Shown in pieces: positions 3,653 through 14,014 of a stretch of DNA of 39,615 nucleotides (positions are counted from its first letter, which is position 1; each line of letters begins with the position of its first letter). The translations under genes and the position numbers were made by a program. The DNA is taken from NCBI GenBank assembly GCA_016195245.1, contig JACQAC010000041.1, positions 1-39,615 of the forward strand, written 5' to 3'. This DNA comes from Pseudomonadota bacterium. GTDB lineage: Bacteria; Pseudomonadota; Alphaproteobacteria; Caulobacterales; Aquidulcibacteraceae. Below the pieces are notes generated by a model. It was not told the DNA's origin, ran no database searches, and worked only from the letters and a program-made list of their open reading frames with translations.

Positions 3653-5239
3653 ATGACAGACATCCTCCCTATCAAGCGCGCTCTTATTTCGGTCTCGGAC
3701 AAAACTGGCCTGATTGATCATGTGAAGACGCTGGCGGGGCTCGGCGCGAAGCTGGTTTCCACTGGCGGTACTCATAAGGCCATCGCCGAGGCGGGCTTCA
3801 CAGTCGAGGACGTCTCCAGCGTCACCGGCTTTCCGGAAATGATGGATGGGCGCGTGAAAACGCTGCACCCGAAGGTGCATGGCGGCTTGCTGGCGTTGCG
3901 CGACGACAAGGAACACGCGAAAGCGCTGAAGGACCACAACATCGGCACCTTCGATGTGCTCTACGTAAATCTTTATCCGTTCGAAGCTACCGTGGCGCGC
4001 GGCGCGGATTTCGACACCTGCATTGAAAACATCGACATCGGCGGCCCCGCGATGATCCGCGCCGCAGCGAAAAATTACGGCTTCGTCGCCGTCGCCACCG
4101 ACGCGGACGACATGGCGGCAATCCTCGAAGAAGCAAAGACGCACGGCGGCACCACGCTGGCGCTGCGCAAACGCCTTTCGGCAAAGGCCTTCGCCCGTAC
4201 CGGCGCCTACGATGCAGCCATCTCGACGTGGTTCGCCGATCAGCTCGAAGACAGAACGCCGACTTGGCGCGCCGTCGGCGGCAATCTGAAGCAGAGCCTG
4301 CGCTACGGCGAAAACCCGCACCAGCACGCGGCCTTCTACACCAATGCCGAAAAGCGTTTCGGCATTTCGACAGCGCGACAGCTGCAAGGCAAAGAGCTGA
4401 GCTACAACAATCTGAATGATACCGACGCCGCTTATGAATTGGTGGCGGAATTCGATCCGAAGGACTCCGCTGCGGTCGCGATCATCAAGCACGCCAATCC
4501 GTGCGGTGTTGCGCTCGGTGGCAGCCTGATCGAGGCATACACGCGTGCGCTGGCCTGCGACCCGACCTCGGCGTTCGGCGGTGTCGTCGCCGTCAACCAG
4601 AAACTCGACAGAGCCGCCGCGCAAGCGATCACCGACATCTTCACCGAAGTCGTCATCGCACCCGACGCCGATGAAGACGCCATCGCGGTGTTTGCAAAGA
4701 AGAAGAATCTGCGCCTGCTGCTTGTGGGCGGCTTACCCGATCCCGGCGCGCCAAGCCTCTACGTGAAGACAGTCGCCGGCGGCTTCCTGGCGCAAAGCCG
4801 CGACAATGGCCGCATTGCGGCGGCGGACTTGAAAATCGTCACCAAGAAAAAGCCGACAGAAGCGCAAATTCGCGACATGCTGTTTGCGTTCCGTGTGGCT
4901 AAGCATGTGAAGTCCAACGCCATAGTTTACGCGAAGAATGGCGCAACGGCGGGCATCGGCGCAGGACAAATGAGCCGCGTGGACTCTGCGCGGCTGGCGC
5001 GCCTCAAGGCCGAAGATGCGGCGCACGCGGCGGGTTGGAGTGATCCGATGACAGTGGGTTCGGTGTGCGCGTCTGACGCCTTCTTCCCCTTCCCCGACGG
5101 CCTCTTGCAAGCCGCGCAAGCGGGCTCGACGGCGGTGATCCAACCGGGCGGCTCAATCCGCGACGACGAAGTGATCAAAGCCGCAGACGACGCGGAACTC
5201 GCCATGGTGTTCACTGGCATGCGCCACTTCCGGCATTGA
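3653..5239 (+). CDS. purH: Bifunctional AICAR formyltransferase / IMP cyclohydrolase
   Basis: Catalyses the last two steps of de novo IMP synthesis. The N-terminal cyclohydrolase domain (about 1-195) begins [15 protein letters not shown] and carries [10 protein letters not shown]. The C-terminal AICAR transformylase domain has [13 protein letters not shown], the KHANPCG segment with the catalytic Lys-His, and TSAFGG. From the ATG at 3653 the protein is 528 residues, the normal family length; the ORF-track start at 3482 lies inside the heparinase-like gene and is an artefact. An ATG two codons upstream (3647) is an equally possible start, and neither has a clear Shine-Dalgarno. It lies 50 nt after the heparinase-like gene and 2 nt before the next ORF, so it is probably in an operon with both. 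Confidence 0.97.
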
Positions 5240-5241
5240 TC

Positions 5242-6036
5242 ATGGACGCGCCGCAGCGCTTCGATTTCCGTCTGTCGTCAGATCCGCGCACGCTTGAGGC
5301 TCGCGCGGATTGGCTCGCGCCGCACCTGCATGTCACCAGGCCCGAGGGTTCAGGTCCGTTTCCGGTCCTCCTCATGCTGCATGGCTGCGGCGGACCACGC
5401 CCCTTCCAGCGCGAGATCGCGACTTTGATGGCGGACGCCGGCGCCGCTGCGGTGGAAATAGATTCCTTTGCGCCCCGCGGCATCGATCGCGCGGCGGCCT
5501 ACGCCACCGTCTGCACCGGCGCGCGGTTGCGCGGGCGCGAGCGCGCGGGAGACTTGTACGCGGCAATCGCCTGGGTGCGCCGACAAGAATGGGCTGATCC
5601 AAGCCGCATAATCGGCGCCGGTTGGAGCCATGGCGCCTGGACGATCATGGACGCTCTCTCGTTGCGTGCCGGCGACGAGATGCGCCGAGCCACCGGACTT
5701 CACGACTTGAACCGCGAACCACTCGAGGGCTTGGCGGGCACATTTCTGGTGTATCCCTACGCCGGTCCGACCAGCTTCGCTGGTCGCCGCGCGTGGCGAA
5801 TTACGCCTCGGAGTTTGGCCATCACTGCTGGGCGCGATGTGGTGGTGGGCTATACCCGCCCACGCGCCGCGCTGAACCGGCTCTGTGACAACGGCGCGCT
5901 CATTGAGCTTGTGCATTTCGAAAATGCAACCCACGCCTTCGAAGACAGAGAGACCGGCGATCTCTTAGTGCGCTACGACGCGGAAGCCACCGCGCGCGAA
6001 CACGCATTGTTGCGCGAATTTATCAACGGCTGCTAA
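5242..6036 (+). CDS. Dienelactone hydrolase-like alpha/beta hydrolase
   Basis: A 264-residue cytosolic alpha/beta hydrolase. The oxyanion-hole region is LMLHGCGG (about 44-51), the nucleophile elbow is GWSHG (127-131, Ser129), a plausible acid is Asp199 in TAGRD, and the catalytic His is 231 in NATHAFED. This order and spacing match the dienelactone hydrolase-type group. The substrate cannot be told from sequence; the alternative is a general carboxylesterase. The ATG at 5242 lies 2 nt after the purH stop and is preferred over the ORF-track TTG at 5236, which overlaps purH. The 3' end overlaps the korB stop codon on the other strand by 4 nt (CTAA at 6033-6036), leaving no room for a terminator between the two convergent genes. 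Confidence 0.85.
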
Positions 6037-7088
6037 CGCAGCGAGGCGTTGATCTTGTCGAGCGCGCTAACGGGTGGAATGAGTTCGACGTCCTGTAGCT
6101 TGTTGAGTGGCGTGGCCACTGTGTTCAGGCTGTCGTGCAAGTCGCTCGCACCAGGATCAACGAACAGAAGGCCGGTGACGATTTCACCTTCCGCCGCCTT
6201 GCGGCTGAGATAGCCCATGGCGGCGTGACGGTCGGTTGAGTCGTAATCGTCCTCTAGCTTGCGCAGACGAAGGACCGAGCCGTCGTGTTGGCGCACTTCT
6301 TTCAGCTCGCCCGGCGCGTAATCGGCATGGATCGGCGCGCGTGGGCTAATCACGTCGAGACGGTTCACGGCGTCGTTGTGCTCACGCACATAGTCGAAGC
6401 TCTTGGTCGAGCCGACGTGATTGTTGAACGCCACGCAGGGGCTGATCACGTCGAGGATCGCCGTGCCCTTGTGGCTGAGCGCCCCTTTGATCAGCGGCAC
6501 CAATTGCGTCTTATCGCCGGAGAACGAGCGGCCGACATAAGTCGCGCCGAGTTGCAGCGCCAACATCACGAGATCGATCGGGCTGTCTTTGTTCTCCGCG
6601 CCCTTCTTGGCTTTTGAGCCCTTATCGGACGTGGCAGAGAACTGGCCTTTGGTGAGGCCGTACACGCCGTTGTTCTCAACGATGTACGTCATGTTCACGC
6701 CGCGCCGCACCGAGTGCGCGAATTGACCGAGGCCGATCGAGGCGCTGTCGCCGTCGCCCGATACGCCGAGATAGATCAAGTCTTTGGCGGCGATGTTTGC
6801 GCCGGTGAGAACCGATGGCATGCGGCCATGCACGGCGTTGAAGCCGTGCGCCGGGCTCACGAAATAATCCGGCGTCTTTGACGAACAGCCGATGCCCGAG
6901 AATTTTGCAAGCCGATGCGGCGCAAGATCGATCTCGAAGCACGCCTGAATGATCGAGGCGCTGATCGAGTCGTGTCCGCAGCCGGCGCAGAGGGTCGAGA
7001 TGCGGCCTTCGTAGTCGCGGCGGGTAAAGCCGAGCGCGTTCTTCTCAAGGGACGGGTGATGCAGCGAAGGTTTGGCGATGTAGGTCAT
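6033..7088 (-). CDS. korB: 2-oxoacid:ferredoxin oxidoreductase beta subunit (KorB-like)
   Basis: Thiamine-diphosphate-binding subunit of a 2-oxoacid:acceptor oxidoreductase, most likely acting on 2-oxoglutarate to give succinyl-CoA and reduced ferredoxin. The 351 residues include LCAGCGHD (33-40) and GIGCSS, conserved in beta subunits, and the ThDP/Mg motif GDGDSASIG (111-119) followed by NNGVYGLTKGQ (139-149). It lacks its own ferredoxin domain, as in the two-subunit KOR type of aerobes such as mycobacteria. Its ATG overlaps the korA stop by 4 nt (ATGA at 7088-7085), so alpha and beta are translationally coupled. A pyruvate or branched-chain substrate cannot be excluded, but the domain layout favours 2-oxoglutarate. 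Confidence 0.93.
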   Translation of the reverse strand: MTYIAKPSLHHPSLEKNALGFTRRDYEGRISTLCAGCGHDSISASIIQACFEIDLAPHRLAKFSGIGCSSKTPDYFVSPAHGFNAVHGRMPSVLTGANIAAKDLIYLGVSGDGDSASIGLGQFAHSVRRGVNMTYIVENNGVYGLTKGQFSATSDKGSKAKKGAENKDSPIDLVMLALQLGATYVGRSFSGDKTQLVPLIKGALSHKGTAILDVISPCVAFNNHVGSTKSFDYVREHNDAVNRLDVISPRAPIHADYAPGELKEVRQHDGSVLRLRKLEDDYDSTDRHAAMGYLSRKAAEGEIVTGLLFVDPGASDLHDSLNTVATPLNKLQDVELIPPVSALDKINASLR

Positions 7089-8920
7089 TTTGCTTTTTCC
7101 GGCATCGCGGAGGCTTGGCCGCTCTTGAGTTTGTCCGCGATGGCGCGGGTGATGAAGCGCGCCGTGATCGGGGTGCCATCGAAGTGCAGGATCGAGACAA
7201 GCCGCGCTGGGTGGACGCCGCCTTCGTTGACCAGAAGCGACTTCAGTTGCCCGTCACGGTTCTGCTCGACGACGAACACTTGTTCGTGCGCGCGGATGAA
7301 CTCGAACACCTCATCCGCAAACGGGAAGGCGCGGACGCGCAGCGCGTTGAGATGGACGCCGTCCTTCTCCAACGCAGCCAACGCCTCGGCCATCGCCGGA
7401 TCGGTGGAACCCATATAGATCACGCCGTCTGGCGTGCGGCGCTTGGCGTCGCGGCGGATTGGCGCCGGCACATGGGATTTCATGGTCTCCCATTTGCGCA
7501 AGAGGCGGTTCATGCCGTCCGTGTAGTCGTCGCCCTTCTCGCTGTAGCGCGCATAGCGATCATGGCTGGAGCCACGCGTGAAGTAGCTGCCCTTGGTCGG
7601 GTGCGTGCCGGGATAAGTCCGATATGGCACGGCGTCGCCATCAACATCGAGGTAACGGCCGAATTCCTTGCCGGCTTCCAGCTCGTCGTAGGTGATCACC
7701 TTGCCGCGATTGAGCTTACGGCCATCTTCCCACCTGAACGGCTCGGTCAGCCATTCTTGCATGCCGATATCGAGCTCGAGCATGACGAAGATGGTGGTCT
7801 GGAAGAAGTCCGCCAGATCGAAAGCCTGCGCCCCGAACTCGAAGGCTTCGGTCGGGTTGGCGGGAAAGAGCATCGGATGCTTGGTGTCGCCGTGTGACGC
7901 GTAGGCGGCGGAGAGCAAGTCCGATTGCTGCGTGCGGGTGGGCATACCGGTCGATGGGCCGCCGCGCTGCACATCGAAGATCACAGCGGGAATCTCGGCA
8001 TAGTAGGAGAAACCCACGAATTCCTGCATCAACGAGACACCAGGACCGGAGGTGCAGGTGAACGAGCGCGCGCCCGCCCAGCCCGCGCCCATCACCATGC
8101 CAATCGAGGCGATCTCGTCTTCCGCCTGCACGATGCCATAGCGGGCTTTTCCGTCGGCTTCGGTGCGCAGCTGGCGGCAATACTTCTGGAAAGACTCCGC
8201 CAGCGAGGTGGATGGCGTGATTGGATACCAAGCGCAGAACGTCGCGCCGCCGAATACGGCGCCGAGCGCCGCAGCGTCATTGCCTTCGACAAAAATGCGG
8301 TCGCCGACCTTATCGGACTTCTTCACCTGCAAGCCAATCGGCGCCAGGTGCTTCTCGGCATAAGAACGGCCAAGCTCGAAAGCCTTGAAGTTGGCGCTAA
8401 TCAGCTTCTCCTTGCCCTTGAAATCCTCGGTCAAGAGTTGTTTCACCAACTCCGGGTCGATACCCAAGAGCTGCGCCAGCACGCCGACATAACAGATGTT
8501 CTTGAACAACTGCCTTTCGCGCGGAACCGCGAAATCGGCGGCGATGAGGTCCGTCAGCGGCGCGCCTATGAGAGTTATGTCGCTCCGAAATTTGTTGGCA
8601 GGCAGCGGTTTCGAGGAATCGTAAAGCAGGTAGCCGCCGGATGCGATTTCCTTGACGTCGCCGTCCCAGGTCTGCGGGTTCATCGCCACGGCCAGATCGA
8701 CGCCGCCGCGGCGGCCGAGCCAGCCCTCCCCCGAGACGCGCACCTCGTACCAGGTCGGGAGGCCTTGGATGTTGGACGGGAAGATATTCTTGGCGGCCAC
8801 CGGCACGCCCATCCGCAAAATGACCTTAGCGAACAAACCGTTGGCGCTCGCCGACCCCGAGCCATTCACATTGGCGAATTTGACGACGAAATCGTTCGTG
8901 GCGGTTAGCGGCTTCGACAT
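7085..8920 (-). CDS. korA: 2-oxoacid:acceptor oxidoreductase alpha subunit with fused gamma domain (KorA-like)
   Basis: A 611-residue fusion. The N-terminal gamma-type domain (about 1-190) contains ANVNGSGSASANGLFAKV and the WLGRRGGVDLAV segment. The alpha domain starts near residue 210 with GNDAAALGAVFGG and carries YPITPST, SGPGVSLMQEF and GGPSTGMPTRTQQSDL, typical for binding of the 2-oxoacid and CoA parts of the reaction. It pairs with KorB immediately downstream (ATGA overlap). Upstream, an AGGAAGG purine tract lies about 13 nt before the ATG, a rather long spacing. The 95-nt gap to the C39-like gene leaves it open whether korAB is transcribed with the genes upstream or from its own promoter. 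Confidence 0.94.
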   Translation of the reverse strand: MSKPLTATNDFVVKFANVNGSGSASANGLFAKVILRMGVPVAAKNIFPSNIQGLPTWYEVRVSGEGWLGRRGGVDLAVAMNPQTWDGDVKEIASGGYLLYDSSKPLPANKFRSDITLIGAPLTDLIAADFAVPRERQLFKNICYVGVLAQLLGIDPELVKQLLTEDFKGKEKLISANFKAFELGRSYAEKHLAPIGLQVKKSDKVGDRIFVEGNDAAALGAVFGGATFCAWYPITPSTSLAESFQKYCRQLRTEADGKARYGIVQAEDEIASIGMVMGAGWAGARSFTCTSGPGVSLMQEFVGFSYYAEIPAVIFDVQRGGPSTGMPTRTQQSDLLSAAYASHGDTKHPMLFPANPTEAFEFGAQAFDLADFFQTTIFVMLELDIGMQEWLTEPFRWEDGRKLNRGKVITYDELEAGKEFGRYLDVDGDAVPYRTYPGTHPTKGSYFTRGSSHDRYARYSEKGDDYTDGMNRLLRKWETMKSHVPAPIRRDAKRRTPDGVIYMGSTDPAMAEALAALEKDGVHLNALRVRAFPFADEVFEFIRAHEQVFVVEQNRDGQLKSLLVNEGGVHPARLVSILHFDGTPITARFITRAIADKLKSGQASAMPEKAK

Positions 8921-9015: not shown

Positions 9016-9759
9016 CTAGAGCTCACGGTGGGGCGCAGGGCGCTTCTGGCGCGTGGCCGGTGGCGGGTGCGGGCCGCTCAAGACCAGCGCCGCATTGTCG
9101 TACGGCCGGCGGTAACGGTCTAAGCGGTCGAAGCTGATGGTGCGATAGCCTCGAACGGGCTCCACCACGACGAAGCGATGTGCGTCGTAGCCGGCGACGA
9201 CGACATAATGACTCACCATCCCGAGATGGGTCTGCTCAAGCGTCCAGCCAACGCGGCCGACCAGAGTGCGTGAGACCAAGCCAACGACGGGCGCATCTTC
9301 TGCCGGCGCACGCCGGTCAGCCACGAAAATGGCCGGCACGAGCACAGGCGCCAAGACGGGGCGCCCGTGCTCCAGTTCTTGGATGATGCCGGCACGATCT
9401 AAACGCACGGCGTTTCCCGCCAACCCATGAGCTCGCGCGAGCGTCAGCAATTCATTCAGATTGTAGCCGCGTGGATCGGCAGGCGGCGTGGCGGCGTAGA
9501 TCGCCTGCCCGTTTACGGCGCCAGCGCTTCGCCAGTAGTTGACGATACTGGCGAGCGCGTTGGCGCCGCACGATTGCTGTTCCCGCTGCTGATCATGCAC
9601 CACCGGCAGAACGAGACCGTTCTCCCGGAACGAGCGGTGCGAGGATTCGAAGCTGTTGTTGGCGCTGTTCTGAGCGAATGCATCGATGGTCGGCGTAGGC
9701 TGAGTCGCGCACCCGCCAAGACAAAGCGCCAACAACAGAAACCGCAGCGTCCGTGGCAT
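9016..9759 (-). CDS. C39-like cysteine peptidase lipoprotein (PA2778-like)
   Basis: A 247-residue predicted exported lipoprotein. The signal peptide MPRTLRFLLLALCLGGC ends in a lipobox with Cys17. The papain-fold C39-like domain has Gln and Cys in EQQSCGANALASIVNYW (Cys64), a catalytic-type His184 in SHYVVVAGYD and an acidic residue in VVVEP (Glu200, where Asp is more usual). The start at 9759 was chosen because it gives the signal peptide directly and because its ATG shares one base with the stop of the upstream small gene (TGATG); the longer ORF-track start adds 20 residues unlike a signal. From memory, this matches the PA2778-type cysteine peptidases that occur paired with PA2779-type small membrane proteins, as here. 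The tail after residue 228 is Pro/Arg-rich. The substrate is not known to me. Confidence 0.8.
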   Translation of the reverse strand: MPRTLRFLLLALCLGGCATQPTPTIDAFAQNSANNSFESSHRSFRENGLVLPVVHDQQREQQSCGANALASIVNYWRSAGAVNGQAIYAATPPADPRGYNLNELLTLARAHGLAGNAVRLDRAGIIQELEHGRPVLAPVLVPAIFVADRRAPAEDAPVVGLVSRTLVGRVGWTLEQTHLGMVSHYVVVAGYDAHRFVVVEPVRGYRTISFDRLDRYRRPYDNAALVLSGPHPPPATRQKRPAPHREL

Positions 9760-10082
9760 CAATTGGACGACACGGCGACAGCGATCACGACTAGCGCCAC
9801 CACACCGATGATCATCCAAGTGCGTGTGGACATATGGCCGCCATAGACGCGTTGCGCTTCCTCCTGCGTCATGACCTGCACATGGTAGCCCTGACGTTGC
9901 AGCTCCATGCCGCGAGCGGCTTGTTCGCTGCTCAGACCATAGCGCTGCAAGTCAGCTTGGCTGAAAGTTTGGGCTGGCGCCGAGCGAAAATGCGTTGCCG
10001 CGGTTTCCGCCGACGCCGTGGAGATGGCGACCTGGCTCAAGGCGAGCGACGCTGCCAATGCGAAATAGAATGGAGCTTTCAT
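9759..10082 (-). CDS. Small exported membrane protein, PA2779-like partner of the C39-like peptidase
   Basis: A 107-residue protein with a Sec-type signal peptide (about 1-26, ending ASA-ET), a short polar helical region (35-80) and one C-terminal transmembrane segment (about 90-104, MIIGVVALVVIAVAV). The polar part ends in MTQEEAQRVYGG just before the membrane segment. That stretch resembles a double-glycine leader of the kind cut by C39 peptidases (Glu at -8, Val at -4, Gly-Gly at -2/-1). The stop overlaps the ATG of the C39-like gene by one base, so the two are coupled. The architecture fits PA2779-type proteins from memory. The ATG at 10082 is chosen for the signal peptide and the purine-rich AGGGAAAG just upstream; the 59 residues added by the ORF-track start are not credible. 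Confidence 0.72.
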   Translation of the reverse strand: MKAPFYFALAASLALSQVAISTASAETAATHFRSAPAQTFSQADLQRYGLSSEQAARGMELQRQGYHVQVMTQEEAQRVYGGHMSTRTWMIIGVVALVVIAVAVSSN

Positions 10083-10300: not shown

Positions 10301-12142
10301 TCAGGCCGACTGTGGGATTTTGGCCTTAGGCGCCGCGCCGCAACCGGCGTGCGTAATGTCGAGATAGAATTGCTGCATGTCCCATGCCCCGGTTGGGCAG
10401 CGTTCCGCGCAGAGACCGCAGTGCAAACAAACGTCCTCGTCTTTCGCCATGATGCGGCCGGTATTGAGCCCGTCAGCGACGTAGAGGTCCTGCATTGGAT
10501 TCTTTGCCGGCGCGTTGAGTCTTTCGCGAAGCTCCGTCTCTTCGCCATTCGGCGTAAACGTGATGCAATCCATCGGGCAGATGTCCACGCACGCGTCGCA
10601 CTCAATGCAAAGGCTCGCGGTGAACACCGTCTCGACATCGCAGTTGAGGCAGCGCTGCGCTTCCTTGTAGCCCGTCGGCAGATCGAAGCCCTTCTCGACT
10701 TCGAGCTTCACGTTCTTGAGTGTCAGCGCTGGCTCGACTTGCGGAACCTTGTAGCGGTTGTCGTTGGTGATGTCGTTGTCATAGCTCCACTCGTGAATGC
10801 CCATCTTGGTGGACATCATGGAGACGCCCGGGGGCGGACGCTGCTTCACGTCCTGACCTGAGAGCATGAGATCGATCGACACCGCCGCATCGTGGCCATG
10901 CGCGACGGCCCAGATGATGTTCTTCGGGCCGAAGGCGGCGTCGCCGCCGAAGAACACGTTCTTGATGTCGGACTGCATGGTGATCGGATCGACAACCGGC
11001 ATGTCCCATTTGTCGAAACTCATCCCGATGTCGCGCTCAATCCACGGAAACGCGTTCTCCTGGCCTACGGCCATCAGCACATCATCGCACTCATAATGCA
11101 CGTCCGGCTCGCCGGTCGGCACGAGCTTTCGCTTCCCGCCCTCGTTCGCCCGATGCGTCTTCGTAAACAACACGCCGGTGAGCTTGCCGTTTTTGTGGGT
11201 GATTTCCTTCGGGTTGAGGAAGTTGATGATCGGGATACCTTCGTGCTGGGCGTCTTCCTTTTCCCAGGGCGAGGCCTTCATCTCATCAAAGCCGGAGCGG
11301 ACGATCACCTTCACGTCCTCGCCGCCCAAACGGCGCGAGGTGCGGCAGCAATCCATGGCGGTGTTGCCGCCGCCGAGCACGATGACGCGCCTGCCGATCT
11401 TATGGATGTGATCGAACGAAACGTTCGAGAGCCAATCGATGCCGATATGGACGTTGGCGCCCGCTTCTTTCTGGCCTAGCAGCTGCAGATCGCGCCCGCG
11501 GGGCGCGCCGGACCCGACGAACACAGCGTCCCAGCCTTCCGCCAAGAACGACTTCAGTGAATCCACGCGCTGGCCGAAATGCGTCACCGGCTCGTAGCGC
11601 AGAATATAGCCAACCTCTTCGTCGATCACGCTCTCCGGCAGACGGAAGCGCGGGATCTGCGTGCGGATCATGCCGCCGGCTTTCGGGTCGCCGTCGAAAA
11701 TGTGAACCTCATAGCCCAGCGGCAGCAGATCGCGCGCCACCGTCAGCGATGCCGGTCCCGCGCCGATGCAGGCGACGCGCTTGCCGTTCTTCTTCGCAGC
11801 CAACGGCGGCAGCCGCTCGGTGATGTCGGAGTCCTTATTGTCCGCCGCGACGCGTTTCAGGCGGCAGATCGCCACCGGTTCCGGCTTTTCGCGCCCCTCT
11901 TCGACGCGCCCGCGGCGGCAGGCGGGCTCGCAAGGCCGGTCACAGGTGCGCCCGAGGATGCCGGGAAACACGTTCGACTTCCAATTGATCATGAAAGCGT
12001 CGGTGTAACGCTGCGCCGCAATCAGCCGGATGTATTCCGGCACCGGCGTATGCGCTGGGCACGCCCACTGGCAGTCGACCACCTTGTGAAAGTAGTCCGG
12101 GTTCTTGATGTCAGTCGGCTTCAAGCGCGCGCTCCCAAGCAT
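10301..12142 (-). CDS. GltD-like FAD/NAD(P) oxidoreductase with N- and C-terminal Fe-S clusters
   Basis: A 613-residue flavoprotein of the glutamate synthase small-subunit (GltD)/NfnB-like group. The N-terminal cysteine-rich region (CQWACPAHTPVPEYI, then CDRPCEPACRRG) fits the helical 4Fe-4S domain. The FAD-binding motif is CIGAGPASLTVARDL, and a second nucleotide-binding site is VIVLGGGNTAMDCCR. The C-terminus carries a two-cluster ferredoxin domain: CIECDACVDICP and CLHCGLCAERCP. No GltB partner is nearby, but KorAB lies downstream on the same strand, so a role as the NAD(P)H-linked electron acceptor of KorAB is plausible (inference). The ATG at 12142 is preferred; the longer ORF-track start would overlap the divergent hydantoinase-type gene and adds a non-conserved extension. 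Confidence 0.88.
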   Translation of the reverse strand: MLGSARLKPTDIKNPDYFHKVVDCQWACPAHTPVPEYIRLIAAQRYTDAFMINWKSNVFPGILGRTCDRPCEPACRRGRVEEGREKPEPVAICRLKRVAADNKDSDITERLPPLAAKKNGKRVACIGAGPASLTVARDLLPLGYEVHIFDGDPKAGGMIRTQIPRFRLPESVIDEEVGYILRYEPVTHFGQRVDSLKSFLAEGWDAVFVGSGAPRGRDLQLLGQKEAGANVHIGIDWLSNVSFDHIHKIGRRVIVLGGGNTAMDCCRTSRRLGGEDVKVIVRSGFDEMKASPWEKEDAQHEGIPIINFLNPKEITHKNGKLTGVLFTKTHRANEGGKRKLVPTGEPDVHYECDDVLMAVGQENAFPWIERDIGMSFDKWDMPVVDPITMQSDIKNVFFGGDAAFGPKNIIWAVAHGHDAAVSIDLMLSGQDVKQRPPPGVSMMSTKMGIHEWSYDNDITNDNRYKVPQVEPALTLKNVKLEVEKGFDLPTGYKEAQRCLNCDVETVFTASLCIECDACVDICPMDCITFTPNGEETELRERLNAPAKNPMQDLYVADGLNTGRIMAKDEDVCLHCGLCAERCPTGAWDMQQFYLDITHAGCGAAPKAKIPQSA

Positions 12143-12178
12143 CGGGGGCGGCAACCTACCCTTCCGCGCGAACGGCGC

Positions 12179-12205
12179 AAGCGCTGTGGTTTGTGATAAG
12201 CGCTT
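12179..12205. promoter_or_regulatory. Inverted repeat in the divergent GltD-like/oxoprolinase promoter region
   Basis: The arms AAGCGCT (12179-12185) and AGCGCTT (12199-12205) form a perfect 7-bp inverted repeat with a 13-nt spacer. It lies in the middle of the 99-nt divergent region between the GltD-like gene and the oxoprolinase A gene, where a regulator could affect both. No regulator gene is adjacent, so the binding protein is unknown and the repeat may be chance. Confidence 0.35.
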
Positions 12206-12241
12206 GATTGCACCGTTGGCGCTGGCAATGGTCTGGGCCAC

Positions 12242-14014
12242 ATGCAGGATGGCTGGCACTTCTGGATCGACCGCGGGGGCACCTTCACGGATGTGGTCGC
12301 GCGCGCCCCTGATGGCGCCGAAGTCGTGCGCAAGCTTCTATCGGTCAATCCGGAGCGTTATCAGGATGCTGCGCTAGAAGCGATCCGCGCCATTTTGGCC
12401 GAGCATGGCGCCGCAGCGGAAGACATCACCGCAGTGCGTCTCGGTACAACCGTCGCCACCAATGCATTGCTGGAGCGTAAGGGCGCGGATGTGCTGCTGG
12501 CGGTGACACAGGGCTTCGCTGACGCCCTTGAGATCGGCACGCAGGCGCGGCCGGACATTTTTGCGCTCAATATCGTCAAGCCGGATCTCCTCCAGAAGCG
12601 CGTGATCGAGGTGCGCGAACGCGTCACTGCACAAGGCGAAGTCCTTACTCCGCTCGATGCGGCGCGGGCGCGAACCGAACTTCAGTGCGCGTACGACGAC
12701 GGCTTCCGCGCTATCGCCATCGCCTGCCTGCACGGCTGGGCATTTCCGGCTCACGAGCGCAAGCTCGCAGCCATCGCTCGGGACATTGGCTTCACGCAGA
12801 TCAGCGTGAGCCACGAAATCAGCGGCCTAATCAAATTCGTGCCGCGCACCGATACGACGGTTGCCGACGCTTACCTCTCGCCCGTCCTACGCGCCTACGT
12901 CGATGGCTTCGCCGGAAGCCTGCACGCTAAGGGCGACATCCACTTCATGCAATCCAATGGCGGCTTGGCGCACGCCGACCACTTCCGCGGCCGCGATGCA
13001 GTGCTTTCCGGCCCCGCAGGCGGCGTCGTCGGCATGGCGGCCGCGGCTAAACGCGCTGGCTTCGAGAATGCGCTCGGCTTCGATATGGGCGGCACATCGA
13101 CAGATGTCTCGCACTATGCCGGCGCGTTCGAGCGCACCAACGAAACCGTCGTCGCCGGCGTGCGTCTGTCAGCGCCGATGCTACAGGTCCACACTGTCGC
13201 CGCTGGCGGCGGCTCGATTTGCTTCTTCGACGGGGTGCGTTTGCGGGTCGGACCGCACAGCGCCGGCGCCGATCCCGGCCCCGCTTGCTATCGCCGCGGC
13301 GGCCCACTGACGATCACCGACTGCAACGTGCTGCTCGGCCGCGTGCGGCCGGAATTCTTTCCCGCGATCTTTGGCCCAAACGGCGACCAGCCGCTTGACC
13401 GCGGCGCAGTCACGAAACGTTTCGCCGATCTCAGCGCCGAGGTGGAACGCGGGACTGGCCACGCCATCACGCCGGAAGATGCAGCGGAGGGCTTTCTGCG
13501 CATCGCCAACGAGCACATGGCTGCCGCGATCAAGAAGATCTCCATCGAGCGCGGTTATGATCCCACACGCTACGCGCTCGTGGCGTTCGGCGGCGCAGGT
13601 GGTCAACATGCCTGCGCGGTGGCGGACGCCGTGGGCGTTGAGACCATTTTGCTCCATCCCCTCGCCGGGCTCCTGAGCGCGTGGGGGATGGGATTGGCGG
13701 ATGTGCGATCCGTGGAGGAGGAGACCGTCGAACAGCGGCTCAGCGACGCCACCGCCTTGATATCGCGCGGACGCCAGCTGGTTGCGAAAGCCGCTCAAGC
13801 CTTGGCCCTAAGCAGCGACGATCAATTTCAGGCAGCGATCACCGCGAACCTGAAATACGAAGGTGCGGATTCGTCGCTGCCGATTCCGCTCACCTCGCCT
13901 GATCTCGCGCAAGACTTCGAAATTGAGCACCGCAAACGGTTCGGCTTTGTCGATCCGGCGCGCGCGATCGTGGTCGCGTCACTCTCCGCCGAAGCCATAG
14001 CGCAGAACCAGTAG
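12242..14014 (+). CDS. Oxoprolinase/hydantoinase A part, ended early by an in-frame TAG
   Basis: The 590-residue product matches the ATP-binding A half of 5-oxoprolinase/N-methylhydantoinase enzymes, which hydrolyse a cyclic amide with ATP. Visible are [11 protein letters not shown] (actin-like phosphate loop), [35 protein letters not shown] and [14 protein letters not shown]. The reading frame continues past the TAG at 14012-14014: the next codons in the same frame encode [12 protein letters not shown] and GPALI, the normal end of the A half, and then the B half. A stretch of roughly 30-45 residues usually found between [12 protein letters not shown] and the PVF strand also seems to be missing (estimated from family memory). 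So this looks like a fused enzyme interrupted by deletion and a stop. Downstream DUF969/DUF979 genes favour 5-oxoproline as substrate. No strong Shine-Dalgarno is visible before the ATG. Confidence 0.85.

Follow-up and report, generated by a model that had tools for sequence, protein, structure and literature searches.

C39 peptidases are known as the leader-cutting domains of ABC transporters that export peptides, and free-standing exported examples also exist. The locus described here codes for a C39-type enzyme that is predicted to be a free-standing lipoprotein, next to a small and probably membrane-anchored protein, and raises the question of whether the second protein is what the first one cuts. 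We refer to the whole stretch of DNA analyzed as the window; it is 39,615 nucleotides long and corresponds to positions 1 to 39,615 of contig JACQAC010000041.1 (assembly GCA_016195245.1; Alphaproteobacteria, Caulobacterales, Aquidulcibacteraceae). Both genes of the pair, and all of their features given below, lie on its minus strand. The first-pass annotation, made from the sequence alone, had proposed that the small protein is a substrate cleaved outside the cytoplasm at a double-glycine-like site. With a probability of roughly 70%, we favor a closely related reading, namely a two-gene protease-substrate module that acts after export and cuts after [A/G]Gly.

The gene pair and its distribution

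The small exported protein, the probable substrate (107 amino acids, 9759..10082; translation, with 20 homologues at the order level), is encoded directly ahead of the C39-type lipoprotein peptidase (247 amino acids, 9016..9759). The two genes overlap by one base (9759..9759), the TGA stop codon of the former and the ATG start codon of the latter sharing position 9759 in the sequence TGATG, exactly as the first-pass annotation had read it; the coordinates that it gave, and its placement of Glu at −8, Val at −4 and GG, also agree with the sequence. In the loci that were measured, the two genes overlap by 1 or 4 bases or are separated by a gap of a few bases. The small gene lies directly upstream of the peptidase gene in 53 of 54 loci, the exception (L066) beginning at a contig end.

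Co-occurrence of the two genes is exact. At the order level, the peptidase was found in 20 of 200 genomes; searching with a small-protein profile recovers precisely those 20. At the genus level, both genes are present in 22 of 30 genomes and neither is present in the other 8 (G097, G058, G033, G152, G167, G615, G617 and G620), five of which are nearly complete. That both genes are missing together from these genomes suggests that the module is dispensable. A class-wide profile search covering 289 genomes recovered the peptidase in the window's genome only, from which the family looks, on sequence evidence, confined to its order.

No flanking gene besides the pair itself is conserved. Since the flanks vary from clade to clade, the pair seems to travel as a unit. 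In the window, it is bordered at 6033-8920 and 10301-12259 by genes resembling 2-oxoacid:ferredoxin oxidoreductase subunits and by one for an NADPH-glutamate-synthase-like protein with ferredoxin domains. This neighborhood is common to the Terricaulis-like clade and was not found in Hyphomonas or Aquisalinus. We considered the flanking oxidoreductase genes as members of the system and dropped them because the neighbors change between clades.

Three genomes of the order-level sample carry a second small protein, in tandem in G182 and G117 and unlinked in G132, and these extra copies, tandem and unlinked alike, retain the candidate site. The unlinked copy (L107:6280-6724, minus-strand frame; G132:C1:3442283-3442591) lies beside a cytochrome-P450-like gene, and its closest look-alike is an Aquisalinus copy (AYQAGAF.QTEW); the 13-kb stretch around it showed no peptidase within about 6 kb. 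Two further loci depart from the common pattern in the enzyme. In L076, from a metagenome-assembled genome of Hyphomonas sp. RI_47, the peptidase reads ASGAHAL at 5163-5171, with the catalytic Cys replaced by Ser (codon TCC), which is either a real variant or an assembly error; its small partner retains YNAG. In L081 (4894-5683), a frameshift splits the peptidase homologue over two reading frames, and the adjoining small protein is intact.

The peptidase and its small partner

Assignment of the larger protein to C39-like lipoprotein peptidases, already made by the first-pass annotation, is borne out by a score of 34 bits against Pfam Peptidase_C39 (PF03412), for which the cut-off is 22 bits, by an alignment of 20 order-level peptidases (A2) and by a fold match. 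The lipobox LGGC occupies residues 14-17 (9709..9720), with Cys17 invariant in A2 and followed by Ala in the window protein. By the usual rule, the lack of an Asp after the lipid Cys predicts outer-membrane sorting, so that the enzyme would become an outer-membrane lipoprotein facing the periplasm.

Four residues expected of a C39 active site are invariant in all 20 aligned peptidases, and Gln, Cys and His follow one another in the C39 order. Gln58 (9586..9588), six residues before the catalytic Cys, would by analogy with C39 peptidases be the oxyanion glutamine; Cys64 (9568..9570), placed by the C39 motif, is the predicted nucleophile; and His184 (9208..9210) is the predicted catalytic histidine. 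Glu200 (9160..9162), 16 residues after the histidine, is the predicted third catalytic position and is also conserved in at least 90% of a wider set of 35 sequences (A6). In most C39 peptidases, this third residue is Asp or Asn. The window peptidase ends after the C39 domain, the transporter part being absent. Searching solved structures by sequence with the peptidase profile gave no match. A fold search with the modeled peptidase domain retrieved the C39 domains of PCAT1, of the LahT protease-leader complex and of ComA, with E-values from 2e-5 to 1e-3.

The small protein begins with a signal-peptide-like segment, continues with a soluble part and the motif MTQEEAQRVYGG, and ends in a hydrophobic helix. 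Sequence and column table place the first of these, MKAPFYFALAASLALSQVAISTASA, at residues 1-25 (10008..10082), ending in ASA with Ala25 invariant, and the membrane helix at about residues 89-104 (9771..9818), with Gly93 invariant. From these elements and the lipobox, we infer that both proteins would leave the cytoplasm by means of their own signal peptides, and that the smaller one would cross the membrane once, its soluble part lying outside the cytoplasm. Compared with Pfam and NCBIfam, the window protein gave no significant match, only noise. Within its family, PepSY_2, LPXTG anchor and holin were rejected as assignments, as each was a weak match of a few members that fell below the cut-off.

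The candidate cleavage site and how it would be used

The motif MTQEEAQRVYGG spans residues 71-82 (9837..9872), that is, positions −12 to −1 of the alignment when compared with the consensus for double-glycine leaders (PMC6363468), and carries Met at −12, Thr at −11, Glu at −8, Ala at −7, Val at −4, Gly at −2 and Gly at −1. Gly81-Gly82 (9837..9842; alignment columns of 40 homologues) would be P2-P1, with a predicted cut after the invariant Gly82. In C39 leaders, the residues recognized are −12, −8 and −7 for ComA and −12, −7 and −4 for LahT150; residues −11 to −4 make up two helical turns, and the stretch −3 to −1 lies extended in the groove (PMC6363468).

We counted residues in the alignment columns of 40 non-redundant small-protein homologues. 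Gly occupies −1 in all 40, Glu occupies −8 and Ala −7 also in all 40, and −12 is always hydrophobic; −11 is Ser or Thr in 39 and −4 is Tyr in 35. The hydrophobic register −12, −7, −4 is present in 39 of the 40. Leader-type patterns occur in 39 to 40 of the 40 proteins, whereas 0.02 to 0.44 proteins would be expected from shuffled soluble parts; the widest of these patterns was composed after the family had been viewed, and because homologues share ancestry, the comparison tests the register and not independence. By sequence, the residues ahead of the site thus keep the register of a double-glycine leader.

The dipeptide itself is less strict than a literal double glycine. The first-pass annotation asked whether the GG before the membrane segment is invariant and named a lack of conservation as grounds for giving up its reading; taken literally, that outcome was observed, since −2 (residue 81) is Ala in 31 of the 40 proteins and Gly in 9, which makes strict GG the minority form. 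What survives of the double-glycine-like site is an invariant Gly at −1, a choice of Ala or Gly at −2 and the register, which is kept even where −2 is Ala. Since a canonical site carries Gly at −2 and any of Gly, Ala and Ser at −1, the preference of this family appears to be shifted.

Docking of the site could be modeled on a natural reading-frame accident. In some Hyphomonas loci, the stop codon of the small gene and the start of the peptidase gene are in frame, so that reading the stop as Gly gives one continuous chain. An AlphaFold2 fusion model was computed from nine such stop-read-through chains plus separate rows for the small protein and for the peptidase, only the nine rows being paired, and the enzyme folded alone served as control. 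The small protein's residues −10 to −5 are helical in the fusion model, and its residues −3 and −2 take part in beta bridges. When the modeled enzyme, a homologue, is compared with its control, bridges are gained at Tyr85 and Ser86 and nowhere else in it. These adjoin Gly84, immediately before the helix that follows the active-site turn, and are equivalent to Tyr99 and Asn100 of the window peptidase, in which Gly98-Tyr99-Asn100 (9460..9468) is the expected substrate-binding segment. The equivalent segment of papain-like proteases pairs with P2-P3. Two bridged residues on one side and two gained on the other account for each other, the partners being deduced from differences in secondary structure. 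Confidence at the site is moderate: the block has a pLDDT of about 72 (66-79 across five models), compared with 42-62 for neighboring blocks of the small protein. Within these limits, the modeled site docks as a C39 leader does. Confidence in the fusion model is also raised for the conserved N-terminal FR..F..YGL of the small protein, and the segment FR..F..YGL..Q..GY may be where the enzyme docks.

The dedicated coupling of a protease to its substrate outside the cytoplasm, as claimed at the outset by the first-pass annotation, is therefore supported by exact co-occurrence, by a motif found in 40 of 40 homologues and by a leader-like docking model, evidence drawn from sequence and modeling. 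The helix from −11 to −4 and the extended [A/G]Gly segment would be presented to the C39 groove as in double-glycine leaders, and the Cys-His-Glu peptidase would cut after the invariant Gly, splitting off a hydrophobic peptide of about 25 residues from a soluble part of about 57.

The main rival to this substrate reading is an inhibitor-like partner: a substrate-like inhibitor or membrane-bound regulator that runs through the cleft and stays uncut, comparable to staphostatin in staphopain. The docking model suits it as well as it suits a substrate, the raised confidence of FR..F..YGL is what a stable complex would be expected to give, staphopain-staphostatin entries figure among the weaker fold matches of the modeled peptidase, and a dedicated adjacent gene whose product is made just before the enzyme is also in its favor. 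Against it, the motif displays the full register of a C39 substrate leader, tandem and unlinked extra copies are better suited to several substrates, and a membrane helix right after the site is better suited to release of a peptide. While none of these points is decisive, we consider an uncut partner unlikely.

Less probable again is the absence of any proteolytic relation, with the two proteins as partners in an envelope complex and [A/G]Gly as a structural hinge ahead of the membrane helix. Gene coupling does not in itself imply proteolysis, the conservation ahead of the helix could serve folding or binding, and the two loci with Ser for Cys (L076) or a frameshifted peptidase (L081) still keep the small protein, which counts against the substrate reading. 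A hinge, however, would hardly require a leader register across −12 to −1, nor would it explain the invariance of Gln, Cys, His and Glu in the 20 aligned peptidases or the gain of bridges that the model places at the predicted substrate segment. Least probable, by a narrow step, is a sortase-like transfer in which the protein is cut at [A/G]Gly and its soluble part handed on to another molecule, the helix serving, as it does in GlyGly-CTERM proteins, as the sorting signal at the C-terminus: the layout (a signal peptide, then a soluble part, a Gly motif and, at the very C-terminus, a membrane helix) fits, but in the window protein no basic residue follows the helix, the tails of the family are short and either uncharged or acidic, each genome has one or two targets, the enzyme resembles C39 peptidases and is neither a rhombosortase nor a sortase, and the invariant Gly93 within the helix suggests that the C-terminal piece matters.

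Relation to PA2778/PA2779 and other C39 systems

The window pair is, by sequence comparison, a divergent variant resembling PA2778/PA2779. Like PA2779 (NF033919), the small protein bears a signal peptide and has a Gly motif before a C-terminal membrane helix, and its gene lies beside that of a C39 lipoprotein. All 26 PA2779 loci examined combine an adjacent C39 gene with a Gly before the membrane helix, the site typically being PAG ([LAEM]PAG). Two PA2779-type proteins (L028 and L031) have PVG or PTG at this site, which keeps the Gly at −1. In the locus L024, the PA2779 and PA2778 genes share one reading frame. Profile-profile comparison gave P 96.5 for the window-family peptidases against PA2778 and a weak P 77.5 over 30 columns for the small proteins against PA2779, both with E-values that are pairwise, not database-wide.

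Calling the small protein PA2779-like, as the first-pass annotation did, correctly captured this resemblance and overstated membership. NF033919 (cut-off 40 bits) does not match the window protein and matches 4 of 20 family members weakly (best E-value 0.015). The window peptidase scores 18.4 bits against NF033920 (PA2778), whose cut-off is 150, with a best member E-value of 7.5e-7. The tail TD.LG.TD.F.F that follows the membrane helix of PA2779 is absent from all window-family members, and the window peptidase (247 amino acids) is without the C-terminal helical-repeat-like extension of PA2778-type proteins, which have about 310-350. Falling below both cut-offs and having neither tail nor extension, the two proteins are not filed as members of PA2778/PA2779. 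A literature search on PA2778/PA2779 found no functional study; the BswR paper describes a transposon between PA2779 and PA2780 and attributes its effect to PA2780, and a PA2779 gene appears in a list of promoters, as a candidate for a strong constitutive one.

Resemblance to the C39 domains of ABC transporters (ComA, PCAT1 and LahT) extends to fold, catalytic layout and, in the model, a leader register in which −11 to −4 form a helix and −3 to −1 are extended. In contrast with those systems, the window enzyme has no ABC part, enzyme and target would each use their own signal peptide, and the third catalytic position is a Glu. Unlike in double-glycine leaders, the Gly at −1 is strict with Ala or Gly at −2, and the piece that follows the site is a membrane helix.

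The precedent that has been studied by experiment is FapD, which works in the periplasm as part of the functional-amyloid system of Pseudomonas and whose active-site Cys is required for secretion of FapC (PMC5557850). Both are exported C39 peptidases, FapD acting outside the cytoplasm and the window enzyme predicted to do so. The FapD authors described the exported C39 class as uncharacterized and the target of FapD as unclear (PMC5557850). Whereas FapD has a Sec signal peptide and belongs to a six-gene amyloid operon, the window system consists of two genes and offers a clear candidate site. Similarity between the FapD model and the window-family peptidases is negligible, with a match in 1 of 20 members at an E-value of 0.083.

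The first-pass annotation suggested that the released fragment may be a signal or a structural piece. Under the substrate reading, the hydrophobic peptide from the C-terminus would be a functional product and more than an anchor, since the invariant Gly93 and the conserved tail of PA2779 both point to the C-terminal piece. A more specific proposal, to which we give slightly less than even odds, is double-glycine processing after export: in the periplasm, the peptidase, a lipoprotein not built into a transporter, would cut its dedicated membrane partner after [A/G]Gly and thereby free a membrane-active hydrophobic peptide of about 25 residues, and the widespread PA2778/PA2779 pair would do likewise.

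The candidate pair would give the exported C39 class, the targets of which have so far been unclear, a probable substrate. Because the two genes co-occur exactly and the candidate site is defined, the identity of this substrate can be tested directly in vitro on a short peptide; the same substrate logic is suggested for PA2778/PA2779. A strict Gly at −1 combined with Ala or Gly at −2 in both families, L028 and L031 being exceptions at −2, amounts to a specific prediction that the site preference of these enzymes would be shifted.
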